IMG/VR virus record: IMGVR_UViG_3300025109_000035
Location: 1 to 34,884 of that record
Source: a virus
Reading direction: 5' to 3' (one strand)
DNA length: 34,884 nt
Shown here: piece after piece, positions 5,136-25,694 of the stretch
Layout of the letters: each line of letters opens with the position of its first letter
How positions within the stretch are numbered: the first letter of the stretch is position 1
Notes under the pieces: model-generated
The model's database searches: none
Told to the model about the DNA's origin: nothing
The model's input: only the letters and a program-made list of their open reading frames with translations
Program-made: the position numbers and the translations under genes

Positions 5136-5156
5136 TCTAATAGCTATTTATTAATA

Positions 5157-6593
5157 ATGGCTTATAAAAAATTTAAAAAGAATGATATATTCTATAATAC
5201 GCTGAAAGCTCATCCAGAGTTTAGTTTTGCTATTTACAATAGCAGAATATATCTAAACAACAAGGATCAGATTACAGGTGCATATGCTGCAAATGTGGGG
5301 CATGTTGACACTGGGTTTGTTAGCTTATATGAATTAAATGTTGACAGATCTTCATCTATAGCAATGTCGGCATCGTACAGGACACAACTCACGGGCACCA
5401 ATCAATCAGAATTTCCCTATAGTTACCCCAACTCGAACCCTGCTACAAAAGCTGACCCATGGGATGAACGCGATATCCCTCTTAATACCACATTTATTCA
5501 CCCTTTTATGGTTAAGAGCGGCTTTAACCAATCTTTTAAATCAATTACAAAAGCAGAATATAATTCACTTCTTTATGGCGAACTAATGACCGGCTCTATG
5601 GTCGGACCAGCCGTCCCCGGTTCATTACAATACCCAATGTCTGCCAGCATTGTTCGAGAACATTTTACAGCAAGCGTCCGTGGCGGACCTCGCGCCAATT
5701 CCGACGCGAGCCCCACTAATGCTGGGGGTGATGTTTTGCATCAAGATGGTCGCAACCATTTAACCGCACTTGAAACTACTTTAAATTATTATATACCGAT
5801 GAATCCACACTATGCTTATTCGGGGTCATTGGGGGATAAACACACTGATAGGGTTACTCTCATAAGCATCCCTTCTATAATGTTTGGCTCTCAAATTAAA
5901 AAAGGATCTGTTACTCTCGACTTTTATATAAGCGGCACATTGGTAGGACGACTTCAGGATGAGAATCAAGATGGCGCTTTAATCGAGACTGCTCCGTCTG
6001 CTAATAATGAAAATTCTGGAAGCACCGCAGGGGTGGTATTATATAATGAAGGATTTTTAGTCCTTACGGGCAGTTGGATCCTCTCGGGAGCAGCACTAGG
6101 TGCTTCCAACAACGATGGATATGATAATCGCGCTGGCACCGGACAACCAGCATCGCTTCCCGGAAAGCTTGCACCTAAATGGATTTATTTTGGTGCGGGT
6201 GCGAATGATCACGTTGCTGTGGGCAATGTTATATCATCTAGTTTTGGATTATCGTTTAAGGGCACAACAAATGTCCAAACCATTACTATGTTGGCTCATG
6301 CAGACAAAGGAAAATTAAATCATTCCAATAACCCAACTTATAAAACAGCTAACCAAACAACCCTACCGGAAACTGGATCTACGGCATACGTTGAAAAATC
6401 GAATTTAACAATTAAAAATATTGTTTCCTCCTCCTATGCTGATCCGACAGGCAGCTTTCAAAAAATAACATACATCTCCTCAGTCGGAATTTATGATGAG
6501 GATAAAAACTTACTTGGCATTGCTAAGATGGCAACTCCAGTTAAAAAATCAGAAAATAGAGAATTTACATTCAAACTTAAATTAGATATATAA
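5157..6593 (+). CDS. putative virion structural protein, paralogue 2
   Basis: This 478-residue protein starts at ATG 5157, 21 bases after the previous stop, with no obvious Shine-Dalgarno sequence; the gap holds GCTATTTA instead. The C-terminal 200 residues follow the same pattern as the preceding protein: IKKGSVTLDF, then VVLYNEGFLVLTG, an LNHSNNPTY box, ISSVGIYDEDKNLLGIAKM and a final FKLKLDI. The two genes therefore look like an ancient tandem duplication, with a longer N-terminal half in this copy. Its TAA shares one base with the ATG of the resolvase gene. A virion role is inferred from context and composition. Confidence 0.85.
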   Translation: MAYKKFKKNDIFYNTLKAHPEFSFAIYNSRIYLNNKDQITGAYAANVGHVDTGFVSLYELNVDRSSSIAMSASYRTQLTGTNQSEFPYSYPNSNPATKADPWDERDIPLNTTFIHPFMVKSGFNQSFKSITKAEYNSLLYGELMTGSMVGPAVPGSLQYPMSASIVREHFTASVRGGPRANSDASPTNAGGDVLHQDGRNHLTALETTLNYYIPMNPHYAYSGSLGDKHTDRVTLISIPSIMFGSQIKKGSVTLDFYISGTLVGRLQDENQDGALIETAPSANNENSGSTAGVVLYNEGFLVLTGSWILSGAALGASNNDGYDNRAGTGQPASLPGKLAPKWIYFGAGANDHVAVGNVISSSFGLSFKGTTNVQTITMLAHADKGKLNHSNNPTYKTANQTTLPETGSTAYVEKSNLTIKNIVSSSYADPTGSFQKITYISSVGIYDEDKNLLGIAKMATPVKKSENREFTFKLKLDI

Positions 6594-11000: not shown

Positions 11001-11242
11001 TGGCGATCAGGCTTGCATTGTTGCACGTTAGTAACTTGCCCAAATCAAATATATTCATCCTTGACGAGCCAGGAACGGCTCTCGATGCAGAAAATCTAGA
11101 AGGATTTGTTAGAATATTAGATATGGTCAAATCGTATTTTAAGACAGTGATTCTAATATCTCATTTAGATTCGCTAAAAGACTGTGTTGACTATATCGTA
11201 AACATTGAAAAGAAAAATGGTTATGCACACGTAAGTCAATAA
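8090..11242 (+). CDS. gp47-gp46: Mre11-Rad50 (gp47-gp46 / SbcD-SbcC) single-chain fusion
   Basis: This 1050-residue protein joins two enzymes normally made separately. Residues 1-345 are a calcineurin-type Mre11/SbcD nuclease: D9 and H11 in IADTHI, D45 in CGDL, N80 and H81 in PGNHD, H149 in LYHG, and H185 in LGDIHK. Residues 365-1050 are a Rad50/SbcC ATPase: Walker A GKNYSGKSS (398-406), a long heptad-rich coiled coil (about 560-900) with a likely zinc hook (C722, C729), an ABC signature MGSGAEKT (960-967), Walker B FILDEPGTALD (989-999) and ISHLD (1023-1027). In T4, gp46 and gp47 process DNA ends for recombination-dependent replication and degrade host DNA. The domain order matches T4 transcription order (47 then 46). 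The frame is continuous across the junction, with no stop or start-site overlap. Confidence 0.93.
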   Translation: MIKIAHIADTHIKNLKYHYEYRIIFEELYNVLRDEKPDYIVHCGDLAHTKTQLSPEYFELATSFIKNLADIAPLIMVPGNHDGNLKNSNRQDAITPIIQALEHPDIHFFKNSGEFHVNDDLCFNILSVFDEDNWIEPTNPDKINIALYHGAISNCKTDIGWVMEHGEHELNIFKKFNFAMLGDIHKCQALDFEGRVRYCGSTVQQNHGETNDKGFLLWEIENKNSFTVRHVELQNPKPFTTIELTTKGRMPKGVDVPQGARIRLVSNNNLSLDKMKRAVDIAKHRFKPESITFLNRALGNRSNAGLTNDDFIKENLRDLTVQKRLIKEFLKEYQIEDDVLDRVLSLNAKYNRAVEETEEVARNINWKFDSFEWDNLFNYGSGNSIDFANLSGIVGIFGKNYSGKSSIVDAALYTLFNSTSKNERKNLNVINQNKEGGVGRVGISIGDKQFVIERESEKYIKKLKGEETLEAKTTVEFNEVDSVTTQVVSHNGLTRNDTDKNIRKMLGTLDDFLLTSMASQLDSLTFIKEGSTRRKEILAKFLDLEIFDKKFKLAKEDASDLRGALKRLEGREYEEDIEEAKEQIRQSEVSIEEHSQKCEEYQQQILDTRSSLSEIENKITSIPLEIIAIEQTISALKAKKNDVRILLQQNKQLTENNNNNNELAEKLNDFLQEYDVENLRNKKKSVEIKNEEYDNLLHFLKNKNKDINAYRKKVSLLQEVPCGESFPTCKFICDAHKAKDALPNMITEISDIRKQSVQLLEDIHNLDIDKLNDYLNKYDLLVGKQKEVQHEVSVSELEIQNNLSKLEVFGHEIENIEKQITTYEENKEAIENLEQLLIKKKKYNTSLEHIEESCDECQQELNDLYISHGSCEQKLQSLIEQKSELSELREDYSAYDLFMRCMHTSGISYDIIKKKLPPINEEIAKVLANIVNFEVFFENDDRRLNVYIKHPKHEPRPIEMGSGAEKTIASMAIRLALLHVSNLPKSNIFILDEPGTALDAENLEGFVRILDMVKSYFKTVILISHLDSLKDCVDYIVNIEKKNGYAHVSQ

Positions 11243-11251
11243 TTTTTGTTG

Positions 11252-11259
11252 ACTATTTA
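11252..11259 (+). promoter_or_regulatory. ACTATTTA element before membrane-protein genes
   Basis: GACTATTTATATAACAGGAG precedes ATG 11281. The octamer is 21 bases before the start and six bases before the AGGAG ribosome binding site. It is the first clean copy of a motif that recurs in later intergenic gaps. Confidence 0.4.
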
Positions 11260-11280
11260 TATAACAGGAGATACAAGAAA

Positions 11281-11469
11281 ATGCAAAATGGTTTAGTAGA
11301 TAAAGTATTACAAAAGCTAATTTCCCGCAAGTTACTTACATTTTTAACAGCAACAGGGCTGATGCTTTGGTCCGATTTGGCTTCGGAAACATGGGGTATG
11401 ATCGCTATGGTTTATATTGGCACGCAAGGAGCAGTTGATGTTATGAAAGCATATAAATATGGAGAATAA
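11281..11469 (+). CDS. small membrane protein, holin-like
   Basis: This 62-residue protein has two hydrophobic stretches, about residues 17-31 and 38-51, separated by a short SDLASE turn. The N-terminus is amphipathic and basic, and the C-terminus is charged (MKAYKYGE). AGGAG sits at 11266-11270. Size, two possible membrane passes and a neighbour with one membrane anchor plus coiled coil all resemble a small phage holin. No family was identified with certainty, and it could instead be a small inner-membrane accessory protein. Its stop is immediately followed by the next ATG. Confidence 0.75.
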   Translation: MQNGLVDKVLQKLISRKLLTFLTATGLMLWSDLASETWGMIAMVYIGTQGAVDVMKAYKYGE

Positions 11470-11874
11470 ATGACTTGGTTAGCTATGAAATTATATATGA
11501 AAAAGGCGTGGCTTTGGTGCAAGCACCATTGGAAGATTGCTGCGGTTGCTGCATGGACTCTTATTATTTGGGTTGTTGCGAGAAAGAACGTTGGTGCATA
11601 TGCCAAAGTGCTCGATACAACTATCGAGAGCTATAAAAAGGAAGTTGAAGTGCTGGACAACACCCACAATGCCGAAATAGAAAAAAGAAACGAAGCAATT
11701 CGCAAACGCACCGAGGCACTAACAAAATTGGAACAGCACTATGACAGATCTTTAGATTATTTAACTGTCGAAAAAAGAGCAAGATATTTAGAACTAATAA
11801 CGATGTTTGATCAAGATCCAGAATTTGTTAATGAAGCAATTACAGAGGAGTTTGGATTTAAATATGTGGAATAA
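11470..11874 (+). CDS. membrane-anchored coiled-coil protein, possible Rz-like i-spanin
   Basis: This 134-residue protein has a basic/aromatic N-terminus, one transmembrane segment (about 22-38, IAAVAAWTLIIWVVA), then a charged helical region (about 45-105) rich in Glu, Lys and Arg that looks like a coiled coil. This N-in/C-out layout is that of inner-membrane spanins such as Rz, which help disrupt the outer membrane in Gram-negative lysis. There is no endolysin next to it, so the assignment is by architecture only. The start is directly after the upstream TAA with GGAGA at 11461-11465. Its last 11 bases overlap the next gene, a common feature of spanin pairs. Confidence 0.75.
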   Translation: MTWLAMKLYMKKAWLWCKHHWKIAAVAAWTLIIWVVARKNVGAYAKVLDTTIESYKKEVEVLDNTHNAEIEKRNEAIRKRTEALTKLEQHYDRSLDYLTVEKRARYLELITMFDQDPEFVNEAITEEFGFKYVE

Positions 11875-12319
11875 GATTGCACAAATGTTAAGCTTTGCTT
11901 TATTTTTATGCACTCCTGCCTACGCGCAAGACACAGAAGAAGAGCCGATGTTTACACACCTGGAACAAGGTGAGACAGCGCCCTTCGCTGGCACCCTGTT
12001 CAACCCATCAGCGACAGCAACGTTAATTACGGCGCACCAATATTCATTAACCGAATGTGATTTGTTGGTAGAATATGAAGTGGCGAAAGCGCGTACTGAA
12101 ATGCAATTGCAATTATCGGTGCTTCAAATAAGCTATGACTCTTTGAACGAAAAACATACGCTTTTGATGGATATCAAGAATGATGAAATTAGTACCTATA
12201 GAGAAATGTCGCTTAAGCAACCAAATAAAAATAATCATTGGTGGCTCGCGGGAGGAACTATCGCGGGTATCGGACTTTCTCTTGGCGTGTTTTACGCCGC
12301 AACAAATATCGTGCAATGA
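11864..12319 (+). CDS. secreted/membrane protein with signal peptide and C-terminal TM
   Basis: I place the start at ATG 11864 (151 residues) because it begins a clean signal peptide: MWNKIA, a hydrophobic LSFALFLC core, and an AYA cleavage site at residues 19-21. GAGGAG lies at 11845-11850. An upstream in-frame ATG at 11807 would bury the signal and overlap the previous gene more. After cleavage come an acidic region, a possible helix (about 65-115) and a second hydrophobic segment near the C-terminus (about 126-148, rich in Gly and Ala). The cysteine at 16 is not in a proper lipobox. With its two neighbours it may form a lysis or envelope module; a spanin-like role is speculative. Confidence 0.7.
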   Translation: MWNKIAQMLSFALFLCTPAYAQDTEEEPMFTHLEQGETAPFAGTLFNPSATATLITAHQYSLTECDLLVEYEVAKARTEMQLQLSVLQISYDSLNEKHTLLMDIKNDEISTYREMSLKQPNKNNHWWLAGGTIAGIGLSLGVFYAATNIVQ

Positions 12320-12714
12320 CAAATCCCAAGCAAGATCCAGACTACGCCATAAAAGTTGAAAAGGCAATAGCAGAGAAATATGGCATAGAAACTGTGCAGC
12401 ACCCAGAAAAAGACTGGACCCCAGAAAAAGAGCAAGAATATATAGAGCAGCGCAGGCTACTAAACGAAAAAATTAGAAACTTATCTGAAAAGACTGAAAA
12501 AGTAGAAGTTCAGGGAGTTTTGATATCAAAAAAACTACTTAATAAAGATAGCAATAGAGTTTGTTCCACTTGTGATACTTATTCTTTCGATACGAAGGAT
12601 AATATTTACATGAATAGATATGATTGCTGTCGTCAGTGTTACATAACATGGATTGAGGGAAGAAAAGAACGTTGGGAAGCCGGATGGCGTCCCACACAAG
12701 GAGAAAATAAATAA
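12316..12714 (+). CDS. zinc-ribbon protein of unknown function
   Basis: The start is ATG 12316, overlapping the previous TGA in an ATGA arrangement (132 residues). A longer in-frame start at 12238 lies inside the previous gene and encodes an arginine-rich shadow. The first 70 residues are charged and helical. C83 and C86 (CSTC) with C104/C105 and C108 (CCRQC) form a probable single zinc-binding knuckle, followed by a tryptophan-rich WIEGRKERWEAGW stretch. The stop is immediately followed by the next ATG, so the gene is probably co-translated with the packaging genes. No enzymatic motif is visible; nucleic acid or protein binding is possible. Confidence 0.75.
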   Translation: MTNPKQDPDYAIKVEKAIAEKYGIETVQHPEKDWTPEKEQEYIEQRRLLNEKIRNLSEKTEKVEVQGVLISKKLLNKDSNRVCSTCDTYSFDTKDNIYMNRYDCCRQCYITWIEGRKERWEAGWRPTQGENK

Positions 12715-13230
12715 ATGGCAACAACAGTGTTAGACATCGTAAGAGGAATTTCACAAGCAGCCGCAAATGGCTATGATGGCTCACAAGATGAAAAATATTC
12801 TTATGACGGCGAATCAAGAAAGATTGGGCTAAAAAGAGAAGAAGGCGATCCTATTGTTGATTCTCGTGTTGTTGATGGGTTTGGTGTTGTCTTTCATGGC
12901 AATCTCTTATGCATCAGCTATCAGAGCGATATTAAACTCAAGGAAGTATATGCGGGCGATATTGAAGCCGACGTAGAAGACATGATTCAGAACGTTGCCA
13001 ATTTCCTAAAAAAAGAGTATAAAAAGATTACTGGTGATGCTCTTTCCCTCACGCCCGAGGGCGAAGTGAGTGTTGGAGTCCAGAACACTTCAAACGTTCG
13101 CGCTTTTGTTACAGGTAAACGACATTATAAAGTTGGAAACCTCGATGGAGTAACACCAGTTGCGGATCCATCCAAGGACAGATTAGACAAGTCTATTCGC
13201 GATTTTCTTGCGCTTGGCAAAAACAAATAA
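12715..13230 (+). CDS. conserved phage protein in the small-terminase position
   Basis: This 171-residue protein lies directly before the large terminase, where T4-like phages normally keep gene 16 (small terminase, DNA recognition). The sequence does not show a clear helix-turn-helix. It starts MATTVLDIVRGISQAAANGY, carries an LKREEGDPIVDSRVVDGFGV stretch, and has a central helix rich in Glu and Lys (EDMIQNVANFLKKEYKK). I regard it as a conserved family of T4-like phages without an assigned function. A divergent gp16 is possible but not shown. The start directly abuts the upstream stop. Confidence 0.8.
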   Translation: MATTVLDIVRGISQAAANGYDGSQDEKYSYDGESRKIGLKREEGDPIVDSRVVDGFGVVFHGNLLCISYQSDIKLKEVYAGDIEADVEDMIQNVANFLKKEYKKITGDALSLTPEGEVSVGVQNTSNVRAFVTGKRHYKVGNLDGVTPVADPSKDRLDKSIRDFLALGKNK

Positions 13231-13241
13231 AAAATGATTAG

Positions 13242-14831
13242 ATGTCGTTTGAACTTACAAAAAATGAAATTTTAAAAGAGATCTTACAAAGCGGAAAGGA
13301 TCCAGTTTATTTTATTGATAACTATGCAAGGATCGCCCACCCTTTGGAGGGTTTAATTCCTTTTAAACTGTACGACTTTCAGAAAGAATTACTAACAGAT
13401 TTTAATGATCATCGCTTCAATGTTATATTAAAAGCAAGACAGTTGGGTATTTCCACCACAACTGCTGCTTATATTGCGTGGATGATGCTGTTCCACAGAA
13501 ATAAAAATATTCTTGTAATTGCGACCAAGTTTCAGACCGCAGGCAATCTTGTAAAAAAAGTAAAACATATAATTAAAAATCTGCCACCTTGGATGCAAAT
13601 AGCAAATATTACAATTGATAATAGAGCATCGTTTGTTCTCTCCAACGGTTCTGAAATCAAAGCATCATCAACTTCTTCCGATGCCGGTCGTTCGGAGGCG
13701 CTATCATTGTTAGTAATCGATGAAGCGGCACACGTTGACGGGCTTGAAGAATTGTGGCCAGGTCTTTATCCCACTCTATCAACAGGTGGTCGTTGTATTG
13801 CCTTGTCAACTCCTAATGGTGTTGGGAACTGGTTCCACCAGATATACGTAGATTCAGAACAGGGACAAAACGATTTCTTTCCTACTAAACTAATATGGGA
13901 TGTTCATCCCGAAAGAGATCTGGAATGGTTTGAAAAGGAAACCAAGAACATGTCCCAGAGACAAGTTGCACAAGAACTAGAGTGCAATTTTAATATGTCA
14001 GGCGAGACTGTTATTCACCCTGAAGATCTAGAATGGATGACAACACTGATCAAAGAGCCGCAATACCGAACAGGGTTTGATAGAAATTTTTGGATTTGGG
14101 AAAAGTCCATAGATGGATACAACTACCTTCTTACCGTTGATGTCGCACGGGGCGACGGCAAGGACAATTCAACACTTCATGTTATAAAACTAGAAACTAT
14201 GGAAGTTGTCGCAGAATATCAAGGAAAGCCAACTCTTGATGTTTATGCCGATATGATTAATAGTATTGGACGAGAGTATAACAACGGGATGGTTGTTGTT
14301 GAAAATAACTCTGTTGGGTTTGGAGTGTTAACAAAATTGCAAGAGCTAGGCTATAATAATATTTATTTTTCTATTAAGTCAACTCATGAATATGTTGAGC
14401 AGTTGCAAGGAGAACACATGTCTAATGCTGTTGCTGGTTTTTCTACTACATCAAAGACTCGCCCTCTGATTGTTGCAAAAATGGAAGAATTCATTAGAAA
14501 TAAACTAATTACTGTATACTCTTCTAGAATGGTTAACGAGTTAAAAACTTTTATCTGGCACCATGGTCGTCCCGAGGCTATGAGAAGTTATAATGATGAC
14601 TTAACCATGGCTTTGGCGATTGGCTGCTGGGTTCGAGATACGGCTTTTGAGGCAGGAAAATTGGATCAAGAATATAGGAACGCATTTGTAAACTCTATGT
14701 TTGTTGCCTCAACAAAGCTCAATAATCAAATTAAAGGGCAAGAGGGATATAGAAAGAATATGGATCTCCAGGGTGAGCAGCAACAAGCCAAAGAGTCAAT
14801 GCACGAATTTGGCTGGCTATATAAAGGATAA
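13242..14831 (+). CDS. gp17: terminase large subunit (T4 gp17-like)
   Basis: This 529-residue packaging motor combines an ATPase with a DNA-cutting nuclease, close to the usual gp17 length minus some termini. The ATPase has KARQLGIST (64-72) as adenine/Walker A region, Walker B LLVIDEAAH (156-164; D160, E161) and a coupling motif around LSTPNG (188-193). The C-terminal RNase H-like nuclease shows D300 in LTVDVARGDGKDNS, E354 in VVVENNSVG and D452/D453 in SYNDDLTMAL. It docks on the portal, and the portal gene follows after five bases. In T4, genes 18 and 19 stand between 17 and 20, so the adjacency here is a rearrangement. Confidence 0.97.
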   Translation: MSFELTKNEILKEILQSGKDPVYFIDNYARIAHPLEGLIPFKLYDFQKELLTDFNDHRFNVILKARQLGISTTTAAYIAWMMLFHRNKNILVIATKFQTAGNLVKKVKHIIKNLPPWMQIANITIDNRASFVLSNGSEIKASSTSSDAGRSEALSLLVIDEAAHVDGLEELWPGLYPTLSTGGRCIALSTPNGVGNWFHQIYVDSEQGQNDFFPTKLIWDVHPERDLEWFEKETKNMSQRQVAQELECNFNMSGETVIHPEDLEWMTTLIKEPQYRTGFDRNFWIWEKSIDGYNYLLTVDVARGDGKDNSTLHVIKLETMEVVAEYQGKPTLDVYADMINSIGREYNNGMVVVENNSVGFGVLTKLQELGYNNIYFSIKSTHEYVEQLQGEHMSNAVAGFSTTSKTRPLIVAKMEEFIRNKLITVYSSRMVNELKTFIWHHGRPEAMRSYNDDLTMALAIGCWVRDTAFEAGKLDQEYRNAFVNSMFVASTKLNNQIKGQEGYRKNMDLQGEQQQAKESMHEFGWLYKG

Positions 14832-14836
14832 AATAA

Positions 14837-16753
14837 ATGGCAAATAGCAATAGAAATCCCAAAAATAATCAATCCAGCCTTTTTAAGCAATTAACTCGTT
14901 TGCTCTCTGGTCCGCTTGTAAACTATCGTACACAAACGAGTAGAAAGCTTTCTCGTGTCCAGCTTGATAAATTTAAATTTCAGTCTGCCGCAGGATTAAA
15001 TTTCAAAAAATCTGCATATAATCCTTTTGAGCAGTTAAGCACGGCCATTATGGCCAATCAGCTACGAGCCGAAAGATATCAAGATTTTGAGCAAATGGAG
15101 TATACCCCCGAGATTGCTTCCGGGCTTGATATTTACGCCGATGAAATGACCACTTCCAGCGATTTGCAGCCTCTTCTTAATGTCAAGTGCCACAATGAAG
15201 AAATTAAAGCAGTTTTGCAGGAACTATATCATACAGTTCTTAATATTGATTTCAATCTTTTTGGTTGGTGCCGCACAATGTGTAAATATGGGGACTTCTT
15301 TTTATATTTAGATATAGATGAACAATTAGGTATACAATCCATTGTCGGACTCCCTACCCACGAAATTGAGCGCTTAGAAGGAGAAGATAAAAGCAATCCA
15401 AAATACGTACAATTTCAGTGGAACTCGGGTGGGCTTACATTTGAAAATTGGCAAATCGCACATTTTAGGATCTTAGGCAATGATAAGTATGCGCCATACG
15501 GCTCCTCAGTTTTAGAGCCTGCACGAAGAATTTTTCGTCAACTAATTCTATTAGAAGATGCTATGATGGCATATCGCATTGTGCGATCACCCGAACGCCG
15601 TGTTTTTTATATTGATGTTGGAAATGTTGCGCCACAAGATGTTGAACAATATATGCAAAAAGTTATGACACAGATGAAGCGCAATCAGGTTGTTGACGCT
15701 AGCACTGGTCGTGTAGATTTGCGTTACAATCCGATGAGCACTGAAGAAGATTACTTTATCCCCGTCCGTGGCGGTGTTTCTTCCAAGGTTGAAACCTTGG
15801 CAGGTGGTTCTTATACTGGCGATATTGATGATGTTAAATATTTAAGAGATAAATTGTTTTCTGCATTAAAGATTCCGCAATCTTATCTTTCAAGAGGCGA
15901 AGGTGCCGAAGAAGACAAGACAACACTTGCACAAAAAGATATTCGTTTTGCGAGAACAATCCAGAGATTGCAAAGGTCTATCATTACAGAACTAGAAAAA
16001 ATAGGAATTATTCATTTATATACGCTTGGGTATAAGGGCGCAGACTTAATTGGATTCAAGCTTTCTCTTAATAACCCATCTAAGATCGCGGAACTTCAAG
16101 AACTTGAACATTGGAAGACCAAGTTCGACGTGGCTTCGGGCGCAACCGAAGGATTCTTTAGTCGTCGTTGGGTCGCAGAACATTTGTTTAATTTATCTGA
16201 GGAAGAGTTTATTAGAAATCAACGAGAAATGTTTTTCGATAGACGATATGATGCTCAGCTTGAAGCAGAAGCCACGGCTATTACTGCCGCTGCTGAAGGG
16301 GCAGGCGAAGGTATGGGTGGTGAACTTGGTGGCGATCTCGATGTCGATCTCGGTGACGATCTCGGCGGCGAACTTGGTGGCGAACCTGGAGGCGAAGAAC
16401 CTGGAGAAGAAGGGGGCGAAGACACACTTTTAGCAGCCCCTGGCAAACGTGATGACCAGAGACGCAAAGGTAAAAGCGGACCAAGAAGGCGGCATACTCG
16501 CAGCAAATCCCGAGGAATTGAGGTAAATACAGCCAGAACTAATAATCCAGGCGGCGTAGGATATGAAACACTACATCACCTTTCTTCTATTGGTGACGAG
16601 TTTAGGAAAGCAGGTATCTATTATGAGTCCAATGGGCATAAAGATAATTTAGAAGAAAGCAGATTATTTGAGGTAAAACAAGAAATAAAGAAACTAATTA
16701 CGGAACTAGAAGATAGTAAATTGGGTGATAAAAATGAAAAAGAACAAACATAA
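14837..16753 (+). CDS. gp20: portal vertex protein (T4 gp20-like)
   Basis: This 638-residue protein forms the dodecameric DNA channel at one capsid vertex and docks the terminase. Family hallmarks are the N-terminal YTPEIASGLDIYADE stretch, RIVRSPERRVFYIDVGN (about 247-263), the VRGGVSSKVETLAGG loop and FSALKIPQSYL. T4 gp20 is about 524 residues; the extra length is C-terminal. Residues about 490-530 are a Gly/Asp/Glu repeat (GGELGGDLDVDLGDDLGG style), followed at about 534-559 by a very basic stretch with RRKGKSGPRRRHTRSKSR. This acid-then-base tail is probably flexible. The 3' end overlaps the next gene by 20 bases. Confidence 0.96.
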   Translation: MANSNRNPKNNQSSLFKQLTRLLSGPLVNYRTQTSRKLSRVQLDKFKFQSAAGLNFKKSAYNPFEQLSTAIMANQLRAERYQDFEQMEYTPEIASGLDIYADEMTTSSDLQPLLNVKCHNEEIKAVLQELYHTVLNIDFNLFGWCRTMCKYGDFFLYLDIDEQLGIQSIVGLPTHEIERLEGEDKSNPKYVQFQWNSGGLTFENWQIAHFRILGNDKYAPYGSSVLEPARRIFRQLILLEDAMMAYRIVRSPERRVFYIDVGNVAPQDVEQYMQKVMTQMKRNQVVDASTGRVDLRYNPMSTEEDYFIPVRGGVSSKVETLAGGSYTGDIDDVKYLRDKLFSALKIPQSYLSRGEGAEEDKTTLAQKDIRFARTIQRLQRSIITELEKIGIIHLYTLGYKGADLIGFKLSLNNPSKIAELQELEHWKTKFDVASGATEGFFSRRWVAEHLFNLSEEEFIRNQREMFFDRRYDAQLEAEATAITAAAEGAGEGMGGELGGDLDVDLGDDLGGELGGEPGGEEPGEEGGEDTLLAAPGKRDDQRRKGKSGPRRRHTRSKSRGIEVNTARTNNPGGVGYETLHHLSSIGDEFRKAGIYYESNGHKDNLEESRLFEVKQEIKKLITELEDSKLGDKNEKEQT

Positions 16754-17573
16754 CAAGAAAAGAAATACCGCTTTTTTATATGAAGTGCTTATAAAAGAAA
16801 TGACTAAGGCAATAGTATCCAAAGATCAAAAGCACAAATTACGTGTAGTTTCTATTCTCAAAGAATTTTTTAATCCAAATGCTATCTTAAGAAAAGAACT
16901 ATCTCTTTACAATACTCTTTTAGAAACAAGCGGTCTTGATGCCTATACTGCTGAAAAATTGGTTTATAACGTGCGAGAGGCACATGCCAAACTTGAACAG
17001 CAACACGTTCATAGTGCTCAGGGAAGCTTGGTTAAGAGAGTCAACAAAGAATTATCAAAAAGCGTATTTGTTAATTTCGTTCCAAATTATAAAAGCATGG
17101 CGACCCTATCCCAACTTTTTGATGCAGATCTGGGACCAGCCAATATTAAAAGAAATGTTTTGCTAGAACGTCAGATTGTTAAAAATCTTATGTTAGTAGA
17201 AACAACAGAACCACAAAATAAAATGAAGCCAATTGATAATTTGGTTTTTAAAACTTTTGCTAGCAAGTTTAACGAAACACACTCTGGTGGACTCCTCAGA
17301 GAGCAGAGGGAACTATTAAATAAATATGTTTTTTCTTTTGTAGATAATGGAATTGATATTAAAATTTATCTTAATGAAGAACTTTCAAGACTTTATAAAG
17401 TCATTGAGGGATCCGCTAAATACGAAGAGATTAAAAACGACAATAACATGGCAAACTCAACCAAAGAAGTTCTTGTCCTAATTGAAAGCTTTAAAGACAG
17501 GCCAATTGATAAAAATATGGTAAGCAGCGTATTAAAAATTCAAAATTTAGTATATGAGATTACAAGCAAATGA
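16734..17573 (+). CDS. unnamed protein between portal and prohead protease
   Basis: I take ATG 16734 as start (279 residues); a GTG nine bases earlier is possible. The gene overlaps the portal 3' end. The N-terminus is strongly basic (MKKNKHNKKRN), and the rest is mostly helical and charged with no recognised motif, cysteine pair or membrane segment. In T4 this interval holds the small prohead core genes 67 and 68. A core or internal head role is therefore a reasonable guess, but this protein is longer and no similarity could be confirmed. It ends in an ATGA overlap with the next gene. Confidence 0.8.
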   Translation: MKKNKHNKKRNTAFLYEVLIKEMTKAIVSKDQKHKLRVVSILKEFFNPNAILRKELSLYNTLLETSGLDAYTAEKLVYNVREAHAKLEQQHVHSAQGSLVKRVNKELSKSVFVNFVPNYKSMATLSQLFDADLGPANIKRNVLLERQIVKNLMLVETTEPQNKMKPIDNLVFKTFASKFNETHSGGLLREQRELLNKYVFSFVDNGIDIKIYLNEELSRLYKVIEGSAKYEEIKNDNNMANSTKEVLVLIESFKDRPIDKNMVSSVLKIQNLVYEITSK

Positions 17574-18109
17574 GCATTACAGTAACAATTCCACACGTAA
17601 AGAAAAAAATTGGAATTCAAAAAGATATTGTTCTTGATGTTCGCAAGACTTTGGGCGAACAATTTGTTGTATTTGATCATCCCGATGTAGATATTGTTAT
17701 TATTCCTGAAAGCAATAAAGTTTTGGTCTTAGCAAAGCACACTCCTAATGACGAGGTTTACGATACGCAAGATAGACTTTTTTTACTTTTAAGAAAAGAA
17801 GGCATTGTTGATCCCGAGAGTATAAAAGCTGGATTTGTTTATGGCTCTATGGAAGGACAGATGTTTCTTAACGAAGATATCGACATGGTTCAAGTAGCTC
17901 TTTATGGAATAGACAAATTTATTACAGAAGAAAAACCTTATTTTGAATATGTTGAACAGTTTGAAAAAGCCGTAGATGATTATATAGCGGAGCCAACCGA
18001 CGATGATAGTACCGCTCTTGGAGAAGTGCCACAAGAACCTACCAAGGGATCAATTAGACCCGGTTGGATACGGGGTCCATATGGCATGAGCATAATGACC
18101 AGGATTTAA
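17570..18109 (+). CDS. unnamed protein in the capsid assembly cluster
   Basis: This 179-residue protein starts at ATG 17570, overlapping the upstream TGA. It is acidic and mixed alpha/beta in appearance, with a run of hydrophobic strands near residues 40-55 (DHPDVDIVIIPESNKVLVLA) and a helical region around 105-135. The C-terminal 30 residues carry Gly/Pro/Arg (SIRPGWIRGPYG) and look like an extended binding tail. I do not recognise the family. Its position between portal and protease, with translational coupling to the preceding gene, suggests a prohead-related role, but a separate host-directed function cannot be excluded. Confidence 0.78.
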   Translation: MSITVTIPHVKKKIGIQKDIVLDVRKTLGEQFVVFDHPDVDIVIIPESNKVLVLAKHTPNDEVYDTQDRLFLLLRKEGIVDPESIKAGFVYGSMEGQMFLNEDIDMVQVALYGIDKFITEEKPYFEYVEQFEKAVDDYIAEPTDDDSTALGEVPQEPTKGSIRPGWIRGPYGMSIMTRI

Positions 18110-18110
18110 A

Positions 18111-18452
18111 ATGGATCTTTTATATTTTGTGTTGGCTGCTTATGGCTTAACGCAAATTTTAGTATACGGAACTATATTTAATTCTGTTAGACCAACAAGG
18201 GGTAAACTAGGAGAACTATTCCGTTGTCCAATGTGTCTCGGCTTTTGGGTCGGGGCATTTTTATTTGGAATTAATAGGTATACAGAACTATTTACATTCG
18301 AGTATTGTCTCGCTAATCTTTTTCTTTTAAGTTGTTTGTCTTCTGGCACATCTTATGTTTTGAATATGATTATCGGAGATGAGGGAATAAAACATGAACA
18401 CAAATATTTGGACGCGCAAGTGGATGCTACAACCAGTAAGAAATTGCTGTAA
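18111..18452 (+). CDS. DUF1360-like small membrane protein
   Basis: This 113-residue protein has a hydrophobic N-terminal helix (about 3-22), a second around the FRCPMCLGFWVGAFLFG motif (37-53) and a third around 64-88. The CPMCLGFWVG signature, with C39 and C42, matches the DUF1360 family of small integral membrane proteins, known from bacteria and some phages and without a firm function. The C-terminal 25 residues are charged and probably cytoplasmic. It begins one base after the upstream stop, so it is in the same transcription unit as the portal cluster. A membrane protein here is unexpected for head assembly. Confidence 0.75.
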   Translation: MDLLYFVLAAYGLTQILVYGTIFNSVRPTRGKLGELFRCPMCLGFWVGAFLFGINRYTELFTFEYCLANLFLLSCLSSGTSYVLNMIIGDEGIKHEHKYLDAQVDATTSKKLL

Positions 18453-18496: not shown

Positions 18497-19099
18497 ATGA
18501 ATAAACTATTATTAACAGAATATTATGAATTATGTCCCGATGGGAAATGTGATGATCTGTTGACCGAAGAAGAGAAGAGAATGGTTCGCGAAGAAGGCGC
18601 TATGTTTTTAACTGGTGTTATGCAACGAGCAAATCATCTTAATGGAAATGGCCGAATTTATAATCGCCCAATCTTAGAACGCGAAGTTAAAAATTACGAT
18701 AAGCTTGTCCGTGAAAGAAGGGCTCTGGGGGAACTAGATCACCCCGATTCTGCTGTTATTAATTTATCGGCTGCATGTCATCTTGTAACAGAAGTGTGGT
18801 GGGATGGCGATGCTGTCATGGGTAAGGTACAGGTTTTGAACACCCCATCTGGCAAGATCTTAAAAGAACTTGTTAATTCTGGTGTAAAACTTGGCATATC
18901 TTCAAGAGGGATGGGATCCGTTCATGAATCAAATGGGCAAACAATTGTAGAAGACGATTTTCAATTAATTTGTTTTGATTTTGTTTCTGAGCCTTCAACA
19001 ACTGGTGCTTTTATGATGCAAGAAAATAAACAGCCAAACATTATTACAAAAGCAGATAGAATCAATAGAGCGCTCAACGAAATATTGAGGGGTCAATGA
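18497..19099 (+). CDS. gp21: prohead core protease (T4 gp21-like)
   Basis: This 200-residue serine protease cleaves scaffold and capsid proteins during prohead maturation. The family signature is visible: GELDHPDS with catalytic H82, and LGISSRGMGS with S135 or S136 as likely nucleophile, separated by a WWDGDAVMGKVQVLNTPSG core. Length is close to T4 gp21 (212 residues). I choose ATG 18497; TTG 18485 is in frame and better spaced from AGGTGG, giving four more residues. The protein ends in an ATGA overlap with the following gene. Its target consensus, (L/I)-x-E, is present in the N-terminus of the capsid protein encoded downstream. Confidence 0.94.
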   Translation: MNKLLLTEYYELCPDGKCDDLLTEEEKRMVREEGAMFLTGVMQRANHLNGNGRIYNRPILEREVKNYDKLVRERRALGELDHPDSAVINLSAACHLVTEVWWDGDAVMGKVQVLNTPSGKILKELVNSGVKLGISSRGMGSVHESNGQTIVEDDFQLICFDFVSEPSTTGAFMMQENKQPNIITKADRINRALNEILRGQ

Positions 19100-19512
19100 A
19101 AAAATCAGAATTGAAACAGATTCTCAAACCTCTTATAAAAGAATGCATTAAAGAGGTGATGTTTGAAGAGGGTGTTTTGTCCAATATTGTTTCCGAAGTT
19201 GCACAAGGTCTTGGGAACAAAACAATTGTTGCCTCAAAACAACATGTTGCCCAACCCGCACAACAAAACATCAACGAACAACAAGAAGCAAAAGTAGAAC
19301 GTCAAAAGATACAAGAGACGAGAAAAAGAATGTTAGATGCCATCGGCACCGAATCTTATAATGGAGTAGATCTCTTTGAGGGAACAACCCTAGCTCCTCA
19401 GAAGTCTGATCAAACATCAGCCCTCTCTGGTATAGATCCCGATGATCAAGGTGTCGATATCAATACAATTTTTGGAGGAGCCAGTAAAAACTGGTCACAC
19501 ATGTTCAAATGA
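19096..19512 (+). CDS. small unnamed protein between protease and bS21
   Basis: This 138-residue protein is translationally coupled to the protease by ATGA. The N-terminus, MKKSELKQILKPLIKECIKE, is an amphipathic helix, followed by a hydrophobic GVLSNIVSEV turn, a Gln/Glu-rich helical middle (about 45-80) and a Gly/Asp-rich tail ending ASKNWSHMFK. It is soluble, with no signal peptide. I see it as a conserved family of marine T4-like phages of unknown function. A small prohead core or scaffold-associated role is possible from position. The stop overlaps the bS21 start, so the two proteins are probably made in linked amounts. Confidence 0.78.
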   Translation: MKKSELKQILKPLIKECIKEVMFEEGVLSNIVSEVAQGLGNKTIVASKQHVAQPAQQNINEQQEAKVERQKIQETRKRMLDAIGTESYNGVDLFEGTTLAPQKSDQTSALSGIDPDDQGVDINTIFGGASKNWSHMFK

Positions 19513-19718
19513 GCAGAGCAGTCAATATTTCCGTCAAGCCACTAAAAAGAGATACCTCCGAAAAGCTAATTCGAAGGTTTAGGCGCAAAGTGAAGAAATC
19601 AGGAATTCTTGACGAGGTTAGAAAAAGACAGTATTATAAAAAACCTTCGGAATTGAGAAGAGAAAAAATTATTCGTAGAAAACGCGAAACCGCAAAATTA
19701 GAAAGAAAAAAGAAGTAA
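19509..19718 (+). CDS. rpsU: ribosomal protein bS21, phage-encoded
   Basis: This 69-residue protein is very basic and matches bacterial small-subunit protein S21 (71 residues in E. coli) along its whole length. It has a PLKRDTSEKLIRRFRRKVKK helix, then SGILDEVRKRQYYKKPSELRR, the classic gap of S21, then a long Arg/Lys helix. In bacteria bS21 sits by the mRNA exit region near the anti-Shine-Dalgarno sequence and aids initiation. Phage copies are known in aquatic phages and are thought to enter host ribosomes. Here it overlaps the upstream gene (ATGA) inside the capsid assembly cluster, so it would be made late with virion proteins. Confidence 0.93.
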   Translation: MSRAVNISVKPLKRDTSEKLIRRFRRKVKKSGILDEVRKRQYYKKPSELRREKIIRRKRETAKLERKKK

Positions 19719-19759: not shown

Positions 19760-20245
19760 ATGGCATTAACGGGGCAATCAGGTTCTGGACCTAGCACATA
19801 TTCAGTAGGCTTACATAACGTTGGATCATATCAAGTCTCGGCGGTGCCTTGGATTTCAGGATCGGGACTAAACCATGGTAAGGGCGCAGAGGCTGCTTTA
19901 CCTAAAGGGCAGGAATTTAAATTTGAATTTCCGATGGTTGCAAAATCAATTACCGTAATTAATCAAAGTGCCCAAGATATTCGGGTGCATTTTAACTCTA
20001 CGTCGTCCACACTCAGCCGCCCAGACCTCCAGCCCATAGGTGGCATAAATGTTATTAGCGGATCGCACTATCTTTTACTGAATTCTGCTGAAGATTCTTA
20101 CACTTTTGGCGTAAAGGCAGCAGAAATTTATGTTTCAGCACCAGAGACAAATAGTGGAGATGCATCGTTTACAATAATTGCCGAACTAACGCAAATTAAT
20201 TTAGCTAGAATGTTTGAACACACCGGCTCTGGATTAACAGAATAG
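19760..20245 (+). CDS. putative capsid-surface or virion protein
   Basis: This 161-residue protein starts at ATG 19760 after an AGGAG at 19746. It begins MALTGQSGSGPSTYSVGLHN, is Gly/Ser-rich, and has repeated beta strands (FEFPMVAKSITVINQSAQDIRVHF) with no helix of note. Such all-beta proteins of this size are common as capsid decoration or fibre-base proteins. I recall the N-terminal pattern from structural proteins of marine T4-like phages, but function is unassigned. It lies directly before the repeat-containing fibre-like gene with a 12-base gap, suggesting that the two act together. A head-fibre pair is one reading. Confidence 0.8.
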   Translation: MALTGQSGSGPSTYSVGLHNVGSYQVSAVPWISGSGLNHGKGAEAALPKGQEFKFEFPMVAKSITVINQSAQDIRVHFNSTSSTLSRPDLQPIGGINVISGSHYLLLNSAEDSYTFGVKAAEIYVSAPETNSGDASFTIIAELTQINLARMFEHTGSGLTE

Positions 20246-20257
20246 TGGAGATTTTTA

Positions 20258-22519
20258 ATGGGCTTTAAACCAGGAAGTGGCGAACTATCCGATTTAGACG
20301 TAGATTCTGGAACTTTATCAGTTGACGAGACGAATAACAGGGTCGGACTGGGCACAACGAGCCCAAAGACTGCTCTTACGGTTGAGGGGACGATTACCCT
20401 CAAAGAGCAAGCCGATGCTGATAGCGACACCCCCGCCTACGGGCAGATTTGGGTGAACACGGCTACTCCATGTGAACTCTATTTCACGACAGATGCCGGG
20501 GATGATATCCAGCTTACGTCTGGTGCGGCAACTTCTCTTGCTGCTGACGATATTACTGCCGGTGATGCCGCAGTTTCAATTTCAACTACCAGTGGTAATA
20601 TTACTGTTGATTCAAATGCCGGCGCAGTCAGTATCGATGGCCACACTGGTGTAACTGTAGCCTCCTCAAATTCCGGTGATATTACACTTAACTCTGCGGC
20701 TAACCTTGCTGTCACCGCCGATACTGCTACTTTCGCCTCTGCGAATGCTAATGATCCTCTTGTTGTGATCAAAAACACTACAGACGATGCTAACGGCCCA
20801 CGCCTACGATTTGTGAAGGACAAAGGCGCCGCCGGCGCGGCAAACGATGTTGCCGGCCTCATTGAGTTTTATGCCGATGATGCGTCTCAAGATCAGGTTC
20901 TATTCTCTGAAATTAAGTCTCAAGTTAAGGTTCACACAAATGGCCAAGAGGGCGGCAAATTCACAGTTTCTGTTGCAGAGAATGATGGAACATCCACCGC
21001 CGGCTTAGTAATTGAGGATGGCGATGCAGACGGCGAACTTGATGTAACTATTGGTGCCGGCGCAGCCTCTCTCACAACAATTGCTGGAGATCTAGACATT
21101 CCCAATGGCGGTTTTGCCCTGGGTTCAGATGCATCTGGTGATATGTATTATCGCGATTCTAGTGGTGTTTTCACACGAATCGCTGTTGGTAGTGATAATC
21201 ACATACTTACTTTAGATGGCGCTGTTCCTGGCTGGGAAGCTGCCGGTGCAGCATCTTCTCTCGCTGCTGACGATATTACTGCCGGTGATGCCGCAGTTTC
21301 AATTTCAACTACCAGTGGTAATATTACTGTTGATTCAAATGCTGGCGCAGTCAGTATTGATGGCCATACTGGCGTAACAATCGCATCTTCCAACTCTGGC
21401 AATATTACGTTAGATTCTGTCGCGGACATTGTGCTTTCCGGTTCATCCGAAGTTAGGGTAGAGAATGACTTGAGGCTAGACAGCGACAGTTCTGTCATCT
21501 CAATGGGTGCTCAAGATGACGCAACATTCACTCATGACGGCACAACTGGTCTGACCATCGCAGCGACCCCAATCTCCATTAATTCAACTGGCAATTTAAC
21601 TCTAGATTCAACTACTGATATTGTGCTTTCCGGCTCATCTGAAGTTAGAGTTGAAAACGATCTGCGCCTAGACAGCGACAGTTCTGTCATCTCAATGGGC
21701 GCCCAGAATGATGCTACCTTTACTCATGACGGAACAACTGGACTAACAATCGCAGCCAACCCTCTGATCATTGATGGGACAGCGACCATTACGCTTTCAG
21801 GCTCAACTGATGTCAGAGTTGAAAACGATTTACGCCTAGACAGCGACAGTTCTGTCATCTCAATGGGCGCCCAGAATGATGCTACCTTTACTCATGACGG
21901 CACAACTGGTCTGACCATCGCAGCGACCCCAATCTCAATTGATTCAACCGGCGTTTTAGATCTTAACTCAACGACCGGTGATATTAACTTTCAAGATGGA
22001 GGCACCAATCAGCTTTCACTTGACATGGACGGCACCGCCGGCGCAATTATTATGCAACTTAAAGTTGATGGTGATGATTTAGTTTTCCAAAAGTACGATG
22101 GAACCGAAGTTCTTAAACTTGACGATGTTGGGAATACCATTGTCGGCGGTAGCTTGATTGAACAGCAAGTAGCACCAAACGATCTTGTCAACGACGATGA
22201 AACTGCCATATCAGTAGCCAGCATGCTAAAGAGAATTGCTACTGTTACTATTGCATCGAGCGATAAGGAGAAGGATACAGACACAGCAGCTAATATTGTA
22301 GACGCCCTCGAAAATCCAGTCGCAAATCAATCATTTGACTTTATTATTATAAATCTAGGTGAAGGGTTTGAGAATTCAACCTTAACAGTGGAAGCTGGTA
22401 CTGGAGTTACCCTTGTGGGAAGCATGGCGGTCATGAGCGAGGCCTCCGCTACCTTTAGAGTAAGATTGACCAATGTTAGCGGCGGATCTGAAGCAGTTAC
22501 TATATACAGGATAGGATGA
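20258..22519 (+). CDS. fibre-like virion protein with internal repeats
   Basis: This 753-residue protein has GGAG at 20247-20250. The N-terminal region carries NNRVGLGTTSPKTALTVEG, the VG-x-GT-x-SP motif common in phage fibre and spike proteins. Two copies of a unit (about residues 92-143 and 333-384) and three copies of another (about 391-442, 455-505 and 511-561, with LRLDSDSSVISMGAQ) are typical of beta-helical or beta-solenoid shafts. Residues about 627-753 form a separate beta-rich C-terminal domain (FDFIIINLGEGFENSTLTV, then a final TIYRIG). No S74-type chaperone motif was seen. Its place between protease and scaffold genes suggests a head-associated fibre, but a tail fibre cannot be excluded. 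Confidence 0.85.
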   Translation: MGFKPGSGELSDLDVDSGTLSVDETNNRVGLGTTSPKTALTVEGTITLKEQADADSDTPAYGQIWVNTATPCELYFTTDAGDDIQLTSGAATSLAADDITAGDAAVSISTTSGNITVDSNAGAVSIDGHTGVTVASSNSGDITLNSAANLAVTADTATFASANANDPLVVIKNTTDDANGPRLRFVKDKGAAGAANDVAGLIEFYADDASQDQVLFSEIKSQVKVHTNGQEGGKFTVSVAENDGTSTAGLVIEDGDADGELDVTIGAGAASLTTIAGDLDIPNGGFALGSDASGDMYYRDSSGVFTRIAVGSDNHILTLDGAVPGWEAAGAASSLAADDITAGDAAVSISTTSGNITVDSNAGAVSIDGHTGVTIASSNSGNITLDSVADIVLSGSSEVRVENDLRLDSDSSVISMGAQDDATFTHDGTTGLTIAATPISINSTGNLTLDSTTDIVLSGSSEVRVENDLRLDSDSSVISMGAQNDATFTHDGTTGLTIAANPLIIDGTATITLSGSTDVRVENDLRLDSDSSVISMGAQNDATFTHDGTTGLTIAATPISIDSTGVLDLNSTTGDINFQDGGTNQLSLDMDGTAGAIIMQLKVDGDDLVFQKYDGTEVLKLDDVGNTIVGGSLIEQQVAPNDLVNDDETAISVASMLKRIATVTIASSDKEKDTDTAANIVDALENPVANQSFDFIIINLGEGFENSTLTVEAGTGVTLVGSMAVMSEASATFRVRLTNVSGGSEAVTIYRIG
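20532..21410 (+). repeat. direct repeat pair of about 155 bp inside the fibre-like gene
   Basis: Copy 1 runs over 20532-20686 and copy 2 over 21254-21410. For about 75 bases after CTGCTGACGATATTACTGCC the two copies are identical, and later differences are mostly third-position changes. This indicates duplication or gene conversion within the gene. Confidence 0.85.
21430..21940 (+). repeat. three-copy direct repeat inside the fibre-like gene
   Basis: Units begin near 21430, 21622 and 21790. The shared core CAGCGACAGTTCTGTCATCT occurs at 21481, 21673 and 21841, giving offsets of 192 and 168 bases, both multiples of three. Copies 2 and 3 are nearly identical over the following 50 bases, and copies 1 and 3 share the end of the unit, as expected after recombination between repeats. 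Confidence 0.88.
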
Positions 22520-22571: not shown

Positions 22572-22603
22572 TTTTGAATTAGTGTAATTTTAGGAGTATG
22601 TTA

Positions 22604-23782
22604 ATGTCAAGTTTGCTAAGAGATGCCATTATTGATGCAAAAGCGCTTCGCGAGGCCGCGCTTAAGAATGCAGAGACAACAGTAATCGACAAATATTCAG
22701 AAGAAGTCCGTCAGACATTAAACCAACTTTTAGAACAAGATGAATTGGCCGCCCCCGAACTCGATCTCGGCGCTCCAGAAGGTGCACCCGAATTAGATCT
22801 CGGCGCCGACCCCGCAGTCGCCCCTGAAATGGGCCTCGAAGACGAAGCAGGCCCCGTAGAAGAAATTGCTGAAGATATTCCTCTCGCAGCAACTGATGAT
22901 CTTTCTGAGAATGAAGGCGAAAATCTAGATCACCTTGCCACTTCTGGCAAAGAGGTTAATGTTGAAATTAATTTGGATGCTCTTCAAGAAACCATACAAC
23001 ATATGCAGAATGAAACAGAATTAGATATCAACGAGCAAACCTTAAGAGAGCTTCTTGCTGATAATGAAGAAGTTATTGAAGAAGACGATGATGATGCTGG
23101 CAGCGAATCTGATGAATCTAAGGGTTATGCTGGCGAAGCCGCTGGCGCCGAAGAAGAAGGCGAGGCCGAAGAATTTTCAGCCAAAATGAGCCCTAATCTC
23201 GAAGAAGAATTAGACATTTCCGATGACATGATAAATGCTATTGTAGAAAAGCTTACTGTCGATATGGGTGCCTCCCTTTCTGGTTGGGCAGGACGATCTT
23301 CATATGATATGAAGTGGGAGATTGAACAAGAATTAGCCCATCGACGCAGCACTGATGTCGAAGAAGAATTAAAGACTTTAAAGAAGGCTCAAGAAGAGTT
23401 GGTTTTCGAAAATAACCAACTCACAGAGTCACTTGAACAACATAAGCAAGTAGTACAAGAGTTACAAGGGGCTACCCGAGAGGTAAACCTTTCTAATGCT
23501 CGCTTGCTTTACACGAACCGTGTTTTAAGAAATACCTCCCTAAATGAGCGGCAAAGATCAAAAATTGCCGACGCTATTTCGAAAGCTGGTTCAGTAACAG
23601 AAGCAAAGACAATATATCACACGCTAGAAAGTACAGTGGGGAGTTCTCCAAGGAGAGAACCACAATCACTGAACGAAGCACTTGGTCGTCAGCGTACTTC
23701 TGTTCTTCGTGCTTCTCGTCAAGAGAGCACATCATCCGATCCGTTAGCGGAGAGGATGAAAAGACTAGCAGGTATTAAGTAA
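22604..23782 (+). CDS. gp22: prohead scaffold/core protein (T4 gp22-like)
   Basis: This 392-residue protein would form the prohead core on which the capsid assembles and then be degraded by gp21. The assignment rests on position directly before gp23 and on composition: very acidic and Glu-rich in the first half, with a repeated PELDLGAPEGAPELDLGAD segment (about 50-70), a DEEDDDDAG-like run, and a helical C-terminal region (about 235-350) that includes VLRNTSLNERQRSKIADAIS. I choose ATG 22604 because AGGAG at 22592 is seven bases away; the in-frame ATG at 22598 is too close. T4 gp22 is shorter (269 residues), the excess being the acidic N-terminal part. Confidence 0.88.
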   Translation: MSSLLRDAIIDAKALREAALKNAETTVIDKYSEEVRQTLNQLLEQDELAAPELDLGAPEGAPELDLGADPAVAPEMGLEDEAGPVEEIAEDIPLAATDDLSENEGENLDHLATSGKEVNVEINLDALQETIQHMQNETELDINEQTLRELLADNEEVIEEDDDDAGSESDESKGYAGEAAGAEEEGEAEEFSAKMSPNLEEELDISDDMINAIVEKLTVDMGASLSGWAGRSSYDMKWEIEQELAHRRSTDVEEELKTLKKAQEELVFENNQLTESLEQHKQVVQELQGATREVNLSNARLLYTNRVLRNTSLNERQRSKIADAISKAGSVTEAKTIYHTLESTVGSSPRREPQSLNEALGRQRTSVLRASRQESTSSDPLAERMKRLAGIK

Positions 23783-23819: not shown

Positions 23820-25637
23820 ATGGCTGGTATAGTTGAAAGATTGACAGAAGGTATTGTCAATCGTGATATGCAGGCTGAAGGGCATGCATTATTAGAAAAG
23901 TGGGAGCGCACAGGTCTTCTTGAAGGCATGGAGAGTAGCCGCACTCGCCAATCTATGGCTCGCTTGCTTGAAAATCAAGCAAAAGAGCTTCTCCGTGAAA
24001 GTTCTACCATGGCCGGTGGAGATGTCGAAGGTTTCGCAGCCGTCGCATTCCCCATTGTCCGTCGTGTTTTCGCGGGATTGATCGCAAACGATCTCGTTAG
24101 CGTTCAACCGATGAGTCTCCCCTCGGGTCTCATCTTCTTCCTGGATTTCACCGTCTCCAGTAATGGCCCCGGGCTACCCCGCTTGGGCTATGGTGGCGAT
24201 GGCGAAGAGTCGCTTTATGGTGGCGGCCGAGTAGGTAAGGAAATCACCGGTGGTGTGAATCTCACAGGTAGTGGCGTTGAAGCTGGTCCTTATGGACTTA
24301 ACAACGGTTACTCCTCACCAACTGGTTCTGTGACTGCCATCTCATTGGCAGGCGCCGTTATGGTGGCTTCTGGTACTGCTGGGGCAACCCCTGGCGCCGG
24401 CGCAAACCCATTAAATGCTGCGAATCAAGGAAAGCTCGACAAGCTTACAAAGTATGACGTCGACCTTTCTGGCTCCAGTGTTTGTGTGGTTGAGCTTTCT
24501 GGTGGAACTGGCGGTAATTTAGAGCAGCTAGATGTTGATAATTTAGTTGCAATTCAAATGTTGGCAAGTAGCCACAATATCTTCGATGAGAATGTCACAC
24601 TTATACGTCGTCTATCGCAGGTTGCTAGTGGTAGTACTAACCAAGATCCGAGCAAGAGCGGATACAGGTTTAACCTTGTGTTCGCAAATGTTAGTGGTGC
24701 TGTTCCATTAAACAATGGTAGCTCTAATAGTGTCATGGCCATTACGCGTTCTGCACATGCTCTCGACCTTACCATTCCGTTGGATGATAATCTTACGGCT
24801 GGTGGTGCACTGGGTTCCGTCATTGGTACGTCTGTGTGGGGCTTGGAAGCCGAGCCGAGTATCCCCGAAATCGACATCAAGGTTGATTCCGTGGCGATTA
24901 CTGCTATGACCAAGAAGCTCAAGGCTAAGTGGACTCCTGAGTTGGGACAAGATCTTAACGCATACCACAACCTTGATGCTGAAGTTGAGTTGACAAGCAT
25001 TCTCTCTGAGCAAATTGCTCTTGAGATTGACCGTGAGATCCTTACCGATCTTATTAATGGTGCAACTGCTAGTACACTCTACTGGTCACGCTCTCCCGGT
25101 CTCTTTGTGAACCGTACAACCGGCCTGGAAATTGGCGCTAGCTCTGCTGCTCCCGATTTCACCGGTACTGTGAGTGAGTGGTATGAGACGCTTGTTGAAA
25201 CTATCAACGATGTCTCTGCACAGATCCATCGTAAGACTCTACGAGGTGGAGCTAACTTCCTGGTTTGCGGACCTGAAGTCGCTAATCTCCTTGAGTTCAC
25301 TGCGGGATTCCGTGCTTCTGTTACTCACGATGATGAGAAGGGTAGCGTTGGTGCCGTTAAGGTTGGATCACTTTCTAAGAAGTTTGATGTCATTGTTGAC
25401 CCCTACTTCCTGCGAAACGTGATTCTCGTTGGTCGTCGCGGTTCCTCTTTCCTTGAAAGCGGATACGTGTACGCACCTTACGTGCCACTGCAGACTACAC
25501 CCACTATCTTTGGCCCTGAAGACTTCGTGCCCCGTAAGGGCGTGATGACTCGGTATGCCAAGAAGATGGTACGTCCCGATATGTACGGCCTAGTTGTCGT
25601 TCGCGGACTTATTGGTGAAGCCGGCGCTACTAGCTAA
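23820..25637 (+). CDS. gp23: major capsid protein (T4 gp23-like)
   Basis: This 605-residue HK97-fold capsid subunit has a strong AGGAGG at 23806-23811. The N-terminal 60 residues are a helical prohead peptide. A gp21 site, LRE followed by Ser, falls at 58-60, giving a mature chain of about 545 residues. Family features include VRRVFAGLIANDLVSVQPMS (about 80-100) and a C-terminal SGYVYAPYVPLQTTP, then FVPRKGVMTRYAKK. T4 gp23 is 521 residues, so the middle carries extra Gly/Ser-rich sequence (about 125-210), where T4 relatives place their insertion domain. The gene has higher GC than the left half of the window and is followed at once by a perfect terminator. No gp24-like vertex gene is seen here. 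Confidence 0.97.
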   Translation: MAGIVERLTEGIVNRDMQAEGHALLEKWERTGLLEGMESSRTRQSMARLLENQAKELLRESSTMAGGDVEGFAAVAFPIVRRVFAGLIANDLVSVQPMSLPSGLIFFLDFTVSSNGPGLPRLGYGGDGEESLYGGGRVGKEITGGVNLTGSGVEAGPYGLNNGYSSPTGSVTAISLAGAVMVASGTAGATPGAGANPLNAANQGKLDKLTKYDVDLSGSSVCVVELSGGTGGNLEQLDVDNLVAIQMLASSHNIFDENVTLIRRLSQVASGSTNQDPSKSGYRFNLVFANVSGAVPLNNGSSNSVMAITRSAHALDLTIPLDDNLTAGGALGSVIGTSVWGLEAEPSIPEIDIKVDSVAITAMTKKLKAKWTPELGQDLNAYHNLDAEVELTSILSEQIALEIDREILTDLINGATASTLYWSRSPGLFVNRTTGLEIGASSAAPDFTGTVSEWYETLVETINDVSAQIHRKTLRGGANFLVCGPEVANLLEFTAGFRASVTHDDEKGSVGAVKVGSLSKKFDVIVDPYFLRNVILVGRRGSSFLESGYVYAPYVPLQTTPTIFGPEDFVPRKGVMTRYAKKMVRPDMYGLVVVRGLIGEAGATS

Positions 25638-25662: not shown

Positions 25663-25694
25663 AAAGCCCCCATCATATGATGGGGGCTTTCATT
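25663..25694 (+). terminator. rho-independent terminator after the capsid gene
   Basis: AAAGCCCCCATCAT and ATGATGGGGGCTTT form a perfect 28-bp palindrome (25663-25690), with a stem holding GCCCCC/GGGGGC and ending in TTTCATTT. It lies 26 bases after the capsid stop and is the strongest terminator in the window. It would let the abundant capsid message end before the downstream genes. Confidence 0.92.

Follow-up and report, generated by a model that had tools for sequence, protein, structure and literature searches.

The gene at positions 19509..19718 of a marine T4-like myovirus fragment is best explained as a paralogue of ribosomal protein bS21 that has long been resident in phages and belongs regularly to the head-assembly block in a large group of T4-like myoviruses from aquatic habitats. 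We propose that the gene would be co-transcribed late in infection and translated by re-initiation after an unnamed upstream gene (X), and that its product would exchange into the 30S subunit and adjust initiation. As a whole, we give this account a probability of about 0.6. The fragment is an IMG/VR virus record, and the whole stretch of 34,884 nucleotides that was analysed is referred to as the window.

Identity of the bS21 Protein

The 69-aa, rpsU-like product exceeded the curated cut-offs of Pfam (PF01165, E 2.1e-11, 43.8 bits, cut-off 27, residues 16-59) and NCBIfam (TIGR00030 S21p equivalog, 38.2 bits, cut-off 28.95), and it matched PHROG 21469, 'ribosomal protein S21'. A profile of the phage family matched the bS21 chains of many ribosome structures, the best at 3.6e-13. 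The first-pass annotation had described an end-to-end match to S21; the family assignment stands, but the match is confined to the core (profile positions 9-52 of 55). The conserved core motif of bS21 is RRYYKKPS. The window bS21 is very basic, and Tyr43 is its last aromatic residue; of 120 distinct bS21 C-termini from phages with X, 95 likewise have no aromatic residue up to 20 residues from the motif. In the window's clade, dN/dS was ~0.095 for bS21, which indicates purifying selection, and ~0.126 for X, both values being rough because dS is near 1. Phylogeny of bS21 had been proposed as a pointer to the host, but the tree of 55 columns, in which Bacteroidota were not sampled as a set, identified none.

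The Head-Assembly Block

The window contains a T4-like gene set identified with Pfam and PHROGs, namely terminase, gp20-like portal, S77 prohead protease, gp23-like head protein, sheath, tube and hub. The head-assembly genes lie on the + strand. The terminase large subunit (13242..14831; PF03237, PHROG 2) is followed by the gp20-like portal protein (14837..16753; PF07230, 1.2e-76) and by three small conserved block genes of 282, 179 and 113 aa (16725..18452), recognised by synteny, the third being a DUF1360 protein (PF07098). Next is the S77/gp21-like prohead, or head maturation, protease (18497..19099; PF03420, 1e-30), the start of which was listed as TTG at 18485 and is probably ATG at 18497, judging from alignment with relatives. 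X (138 aa, 19096..19512) and bS21 come after it, and 3' of bS21 lies a conserved 161-aa gene, p161 (19760..20245), with homologs in ~60 loci selected for bS21. A 394-aa gene directly 5' of the major head protein (22598..23782) is probably the scaffold, to judge by its position and synteny, and the gp23-like major head protein itself (23820..25637; PHROG 138, 1.4e-67) is followed by a 12-pair bidirectional terminator-like hairpin found by pattern scan (25663..25690). bS21 adjoins X, two genes from the protease and four from the major head protein, all on the same strand. No tRNAs or Rfam families were found within the window.

A hypervariable stretch separates the bS21 and p161 genes from the scaffold (window 20258-22519; 9274-16421 in locus L003 and 10252-16630 in L004); it encodes a repetitive protein of 753 aa in the window, and the large ORFs that close relatives have there are quite unlike it. 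At 8090-11242, one 1050-aa ORF joins a calcineurin-like phosphoesterase domain to an SbcC/Rad50-like ATPase and looks like a fusion of two nuclease subunits that are normally separate (T4 gp47 and gp46); similar long ORFs occur in the related genomes G002 and G003. The tail sheath (30043-32961) is unusually long at 972 aa, with its Pfam sheath domains confined to the C-terminal third. Four sizeable genes at 161-6593 (947, 299, 374 and 478 aa) have no PHROG match and no Pfam match above cut-off, and their order is kept in G001-G004.

Conservation of the Arrangement

Well over 100 distinct related loci share the bS21 frame and its position, which rules out chance. In contigs selected for bS21, the conserved order is terminase, portal, three small genes, protease, X, bS21, p161 in some cases, scaffold and major head protein. 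As these contigs were picked for bS21, X was used as an independent query. bS21 was present in 76 of the 77 loci that X retrieved; ten of these loci, by contig name, lay on contigs already in the earlier set. On the 67 independent contigs, bS21 lay close downstream in 66, and the sole exception has only 1 kb of downstream sequence. The X loci held 126 distinct bS21 sequences, nine of them displaced and 117 directly after X (39 joined by ATGA, 19 starting at the stop or no more than a few bases from it and 59 after 3-25 bases).

A third query, the protease, started from the sequence of the cultured Microcystis phage Mel-JY01 and reached a more distant group of 80 loci, in which no X was detected. 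bS21 was present in 37 of these loci and in every case shared the strand of the block, lying 3' of the protease and, wherever the scaffold gene was included, 5' of that gene. As distant relatives place bS21 alike without X, the place is old and X is a feature of one branch; the idea that X strictly partners bS21 was rejected on the same ground. Among the 45 protease-selected loci with >2.5 kb downstream, 15 had no detectable bS21, so the gene is not essential to the block. Also against our account, the bS21 gene of Pelagibacter phage HTVC008M sits elsewhere in its genome.

X belongs to a family with no match above cut-off in Pfam, PHROGs or NCBIfam. It has an N-terminal helix and a conserved C-terminal GVDIS...W motif. 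A structure model was of low confidence (pLDDT 65), and a fold search with it returned no match. In the host search, X was found in none of 392 bacterial genomes of one phylum and none of 385 of one class, which gave no lead to the host.

Translational Coupling of bS21

The coupling of bS21 to X and of X to the prohead protease was borne out, as both overlaps are exact ATGA sequences: the protease stop and X start share 19096..19099, and the X stop and bS21 start share 19509..19512 (both + strand), the latter likewise in seven other distinct clade members. Four-base overlaps are themselves ordinary, and T4 genes 20-67-68-21 are likewise joined end to end by short overlaps.

Shine-Dalgarno (SD)-like sites of -4.5 kcal/mol or better precede half of the window genes versus 18% of other ATGs, so the phage follows a host that relies on SD sequences. 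The start of bS21 in the window has an SD energy of -2.7 kcal/mol (gene median -5.4, background -1.7), and the SD is equally weak in all seven other distinct clade members tested, whereas in neighbouring clades an SD precedes most of the bS21 genes that are coupled by ATGA. With no usable SD at this start in the window's clade, the likeliest route of synthesis is re-initiation after X, in which ribosomes would finish X and begin again at the overlapping ATGA. We also considered a hairpin before the bS21 start that would draw an upstream GGAGG closer; folding was no better than in shuffled sequences (z -0.6, 0.5 and 0.8), and this candidate was rejected.

Late Expression and Function

The first-pass annotation had also tied the gene to the late, virion-building phase. 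Its place in a co-directional head-assembly block is confirmed, and conserved synteny with head genes lends support to a probably late expression of bS21; that bS21 lies beside phage head genes and is expressed late is, however, already published (PMC9723584). Chen et al. 2022 surveyed 900 bS21 phages, described bS21 in the region from terminase and portal to protease and major head protein, and proposed late-stage ribosome hijacking; the commonest annotated neighbour was the prohead protease (310 of 900 phages), and bS21 was transcribed late with structural genes (PMC9723584). The window gene falls within the distance used in that survey, at most 10 genes from core structural genes. Against a reading as one late operon, the bS21 region described there is not a single operon (PMC9723584). 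In favour of our account, pattern scanning of the window found no strong terminator-like site on the + strand from bS21 up to the hairpin that follows the major head protein; against it, clear late promoters of the T4 type were not found (TATAAATA, 5 found versus 2.9 expected). Transcription of bS21 is probably late and shared with the genes from protease to capsid. Its product would most likely exchange into host 30S subunits near the 3' end of 16S rRNA, where it may adjust initiation during the synthesis of virion proteins.

The SD strength of late genes had been proposed as a check on such an effect. Under one gene-calling rule, we compared late-block genes of at least 200 aa with other genes (median energies, one-sided p); the late blocks are small and of unequal size, G001-G004 are related, starts are uncurated and the several tests are uncorrected. 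Late SDs were stronger in three of four relatives (G001, -8.3 vs -5.9, p 0.001; G002, -8.5 vs -6.4, p 0.009; G003, -7.5 vs -5.8, p 0.029), but the difference was not significant in G004 (-6.3 vs -5.2, p 0.168), and of the controls without bS21 (T4, p 0.19; KVP40, 0.10; Aeh1, 0.15; S-RSM4, 0.49; P-SSM2, 0.25) some lean the same way, KVP40 and Aeh1 reaching p 0.03 when the cut-off was lowered to at least 90 aa. The values for Mel-JY01 were -5.0 vs -3.6 (p 0.17). The gap is not due to base composition, as internal ATGs show no such gap. These stronger late SDs are a weak sign for the idea of the first-pass annotation that bS21 could favour late phage messages carrying particular leaders, a lead rather than a result. 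A stronger proposal, that X and bS21 form a translationally coupled cassette which specialises ribosomes while virions are assembled, to match the unusually strong SDs of late genes, is unlikely in our view.

The alternative that holds up best is that phage bS21 replenishes a ribosomal protein that is limiting and easily lost, and keeps late translation efficient with no preference for phage messages, which we regard as possible but improbable. Consistent with it, bS21 is an exchangeable ribosomal protein (PMC6375957), its core is conserved under purifying selection and a late gene block of any kind would suit it as a location; the SD gap in three of four relatives hints weakly at specialised initiation instead.

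We consider it unlikely that the bS21-like protein has turned into a head component, either packaged into the prohead or DNA-bound. Its fixed place between protease and scaffold, its coupling to X and its basic character would fit such a role, and X is possibly a prohead-core protein: members of its family often carry an LFEGT motif, and this LFEG-like site is similar to the T4 protease consensus. Some clades have LFAGT, however, so there is no strict cleavage site, and the core of bS21 still scores at the level of a curated equivalog, with its motif residues conserved. Virion packaging was also raised by Chen et al. (PMC9723584), whereas another phage bS21 does enter ribosomes (PMC6375957). 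Finally, a shut-off factor that poisons host ribosomes or host initiation is very improbable. The cut of E. coli in vitro translation to ~5% by HTVC008M bS21 (PMC6375957) speaks for it, but this was measured in a foreign host, and late timing would harm the phage's own synthesis peak.

Comparison with Known Phages and Significance

The freshwater Bacteroidetes phages of Chen et al. resemble the window in being myoviruses with bS21 inside the terminase-portal-protease-major head protein region, a small conserved neighbour gene and proposed late expression (PMC9723584). They differ in that their bS21 lies on the opposite strand and outside a single operon, whereas the window gene is co-directional and ATGA-coupled; in that they keep a C-terminal aromatic, Tyr54, which is held to help block the anti-SD (PMC9723584) and which the window bS21 lacks; and in that the window phage uses SD sequences. 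HTVC008M is likewise a marine T4-like phage with bS21, and its protein is the only one of these shown to enter E. coli ribosomes, having been incorporated into 70S particles by Mizuno et al. 2019 (PMC6375957). It is 36% identical to the window's, and its gene lies next to a CobS-like gene and near replication genes, not beside the protease.

Mel-JY01 shares the one-strand order of terminase, prohead protease, small gene, RpsU and capsid, but its small gene is not detectably X, its bS21 is 38% identical and a 14-base gap takes the place of the overlap. Flavobacterium phage immuto has the closest terminase among cultured phages (44%) and the same block order, but no bS21 in its genome and no detectable X.

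What is new here is modest: translational coupling on the same strand, the family of X and a C-terminus that differs from the one in the Bacteroidetes phages. X is a previously undescribed phage family, named here, that almost always travels with bS21, and Mel-JY01 is a cultured phage of related layout that is usable for experiments. The theme of a late, capsid-linked bS21, described for freshwater Bacteroidetes phages, is thereby extended to a large group of aquatic T4-like phages with SD-using messages, in which the effect of bS21 on SD-dependent initiation can be asked directly.
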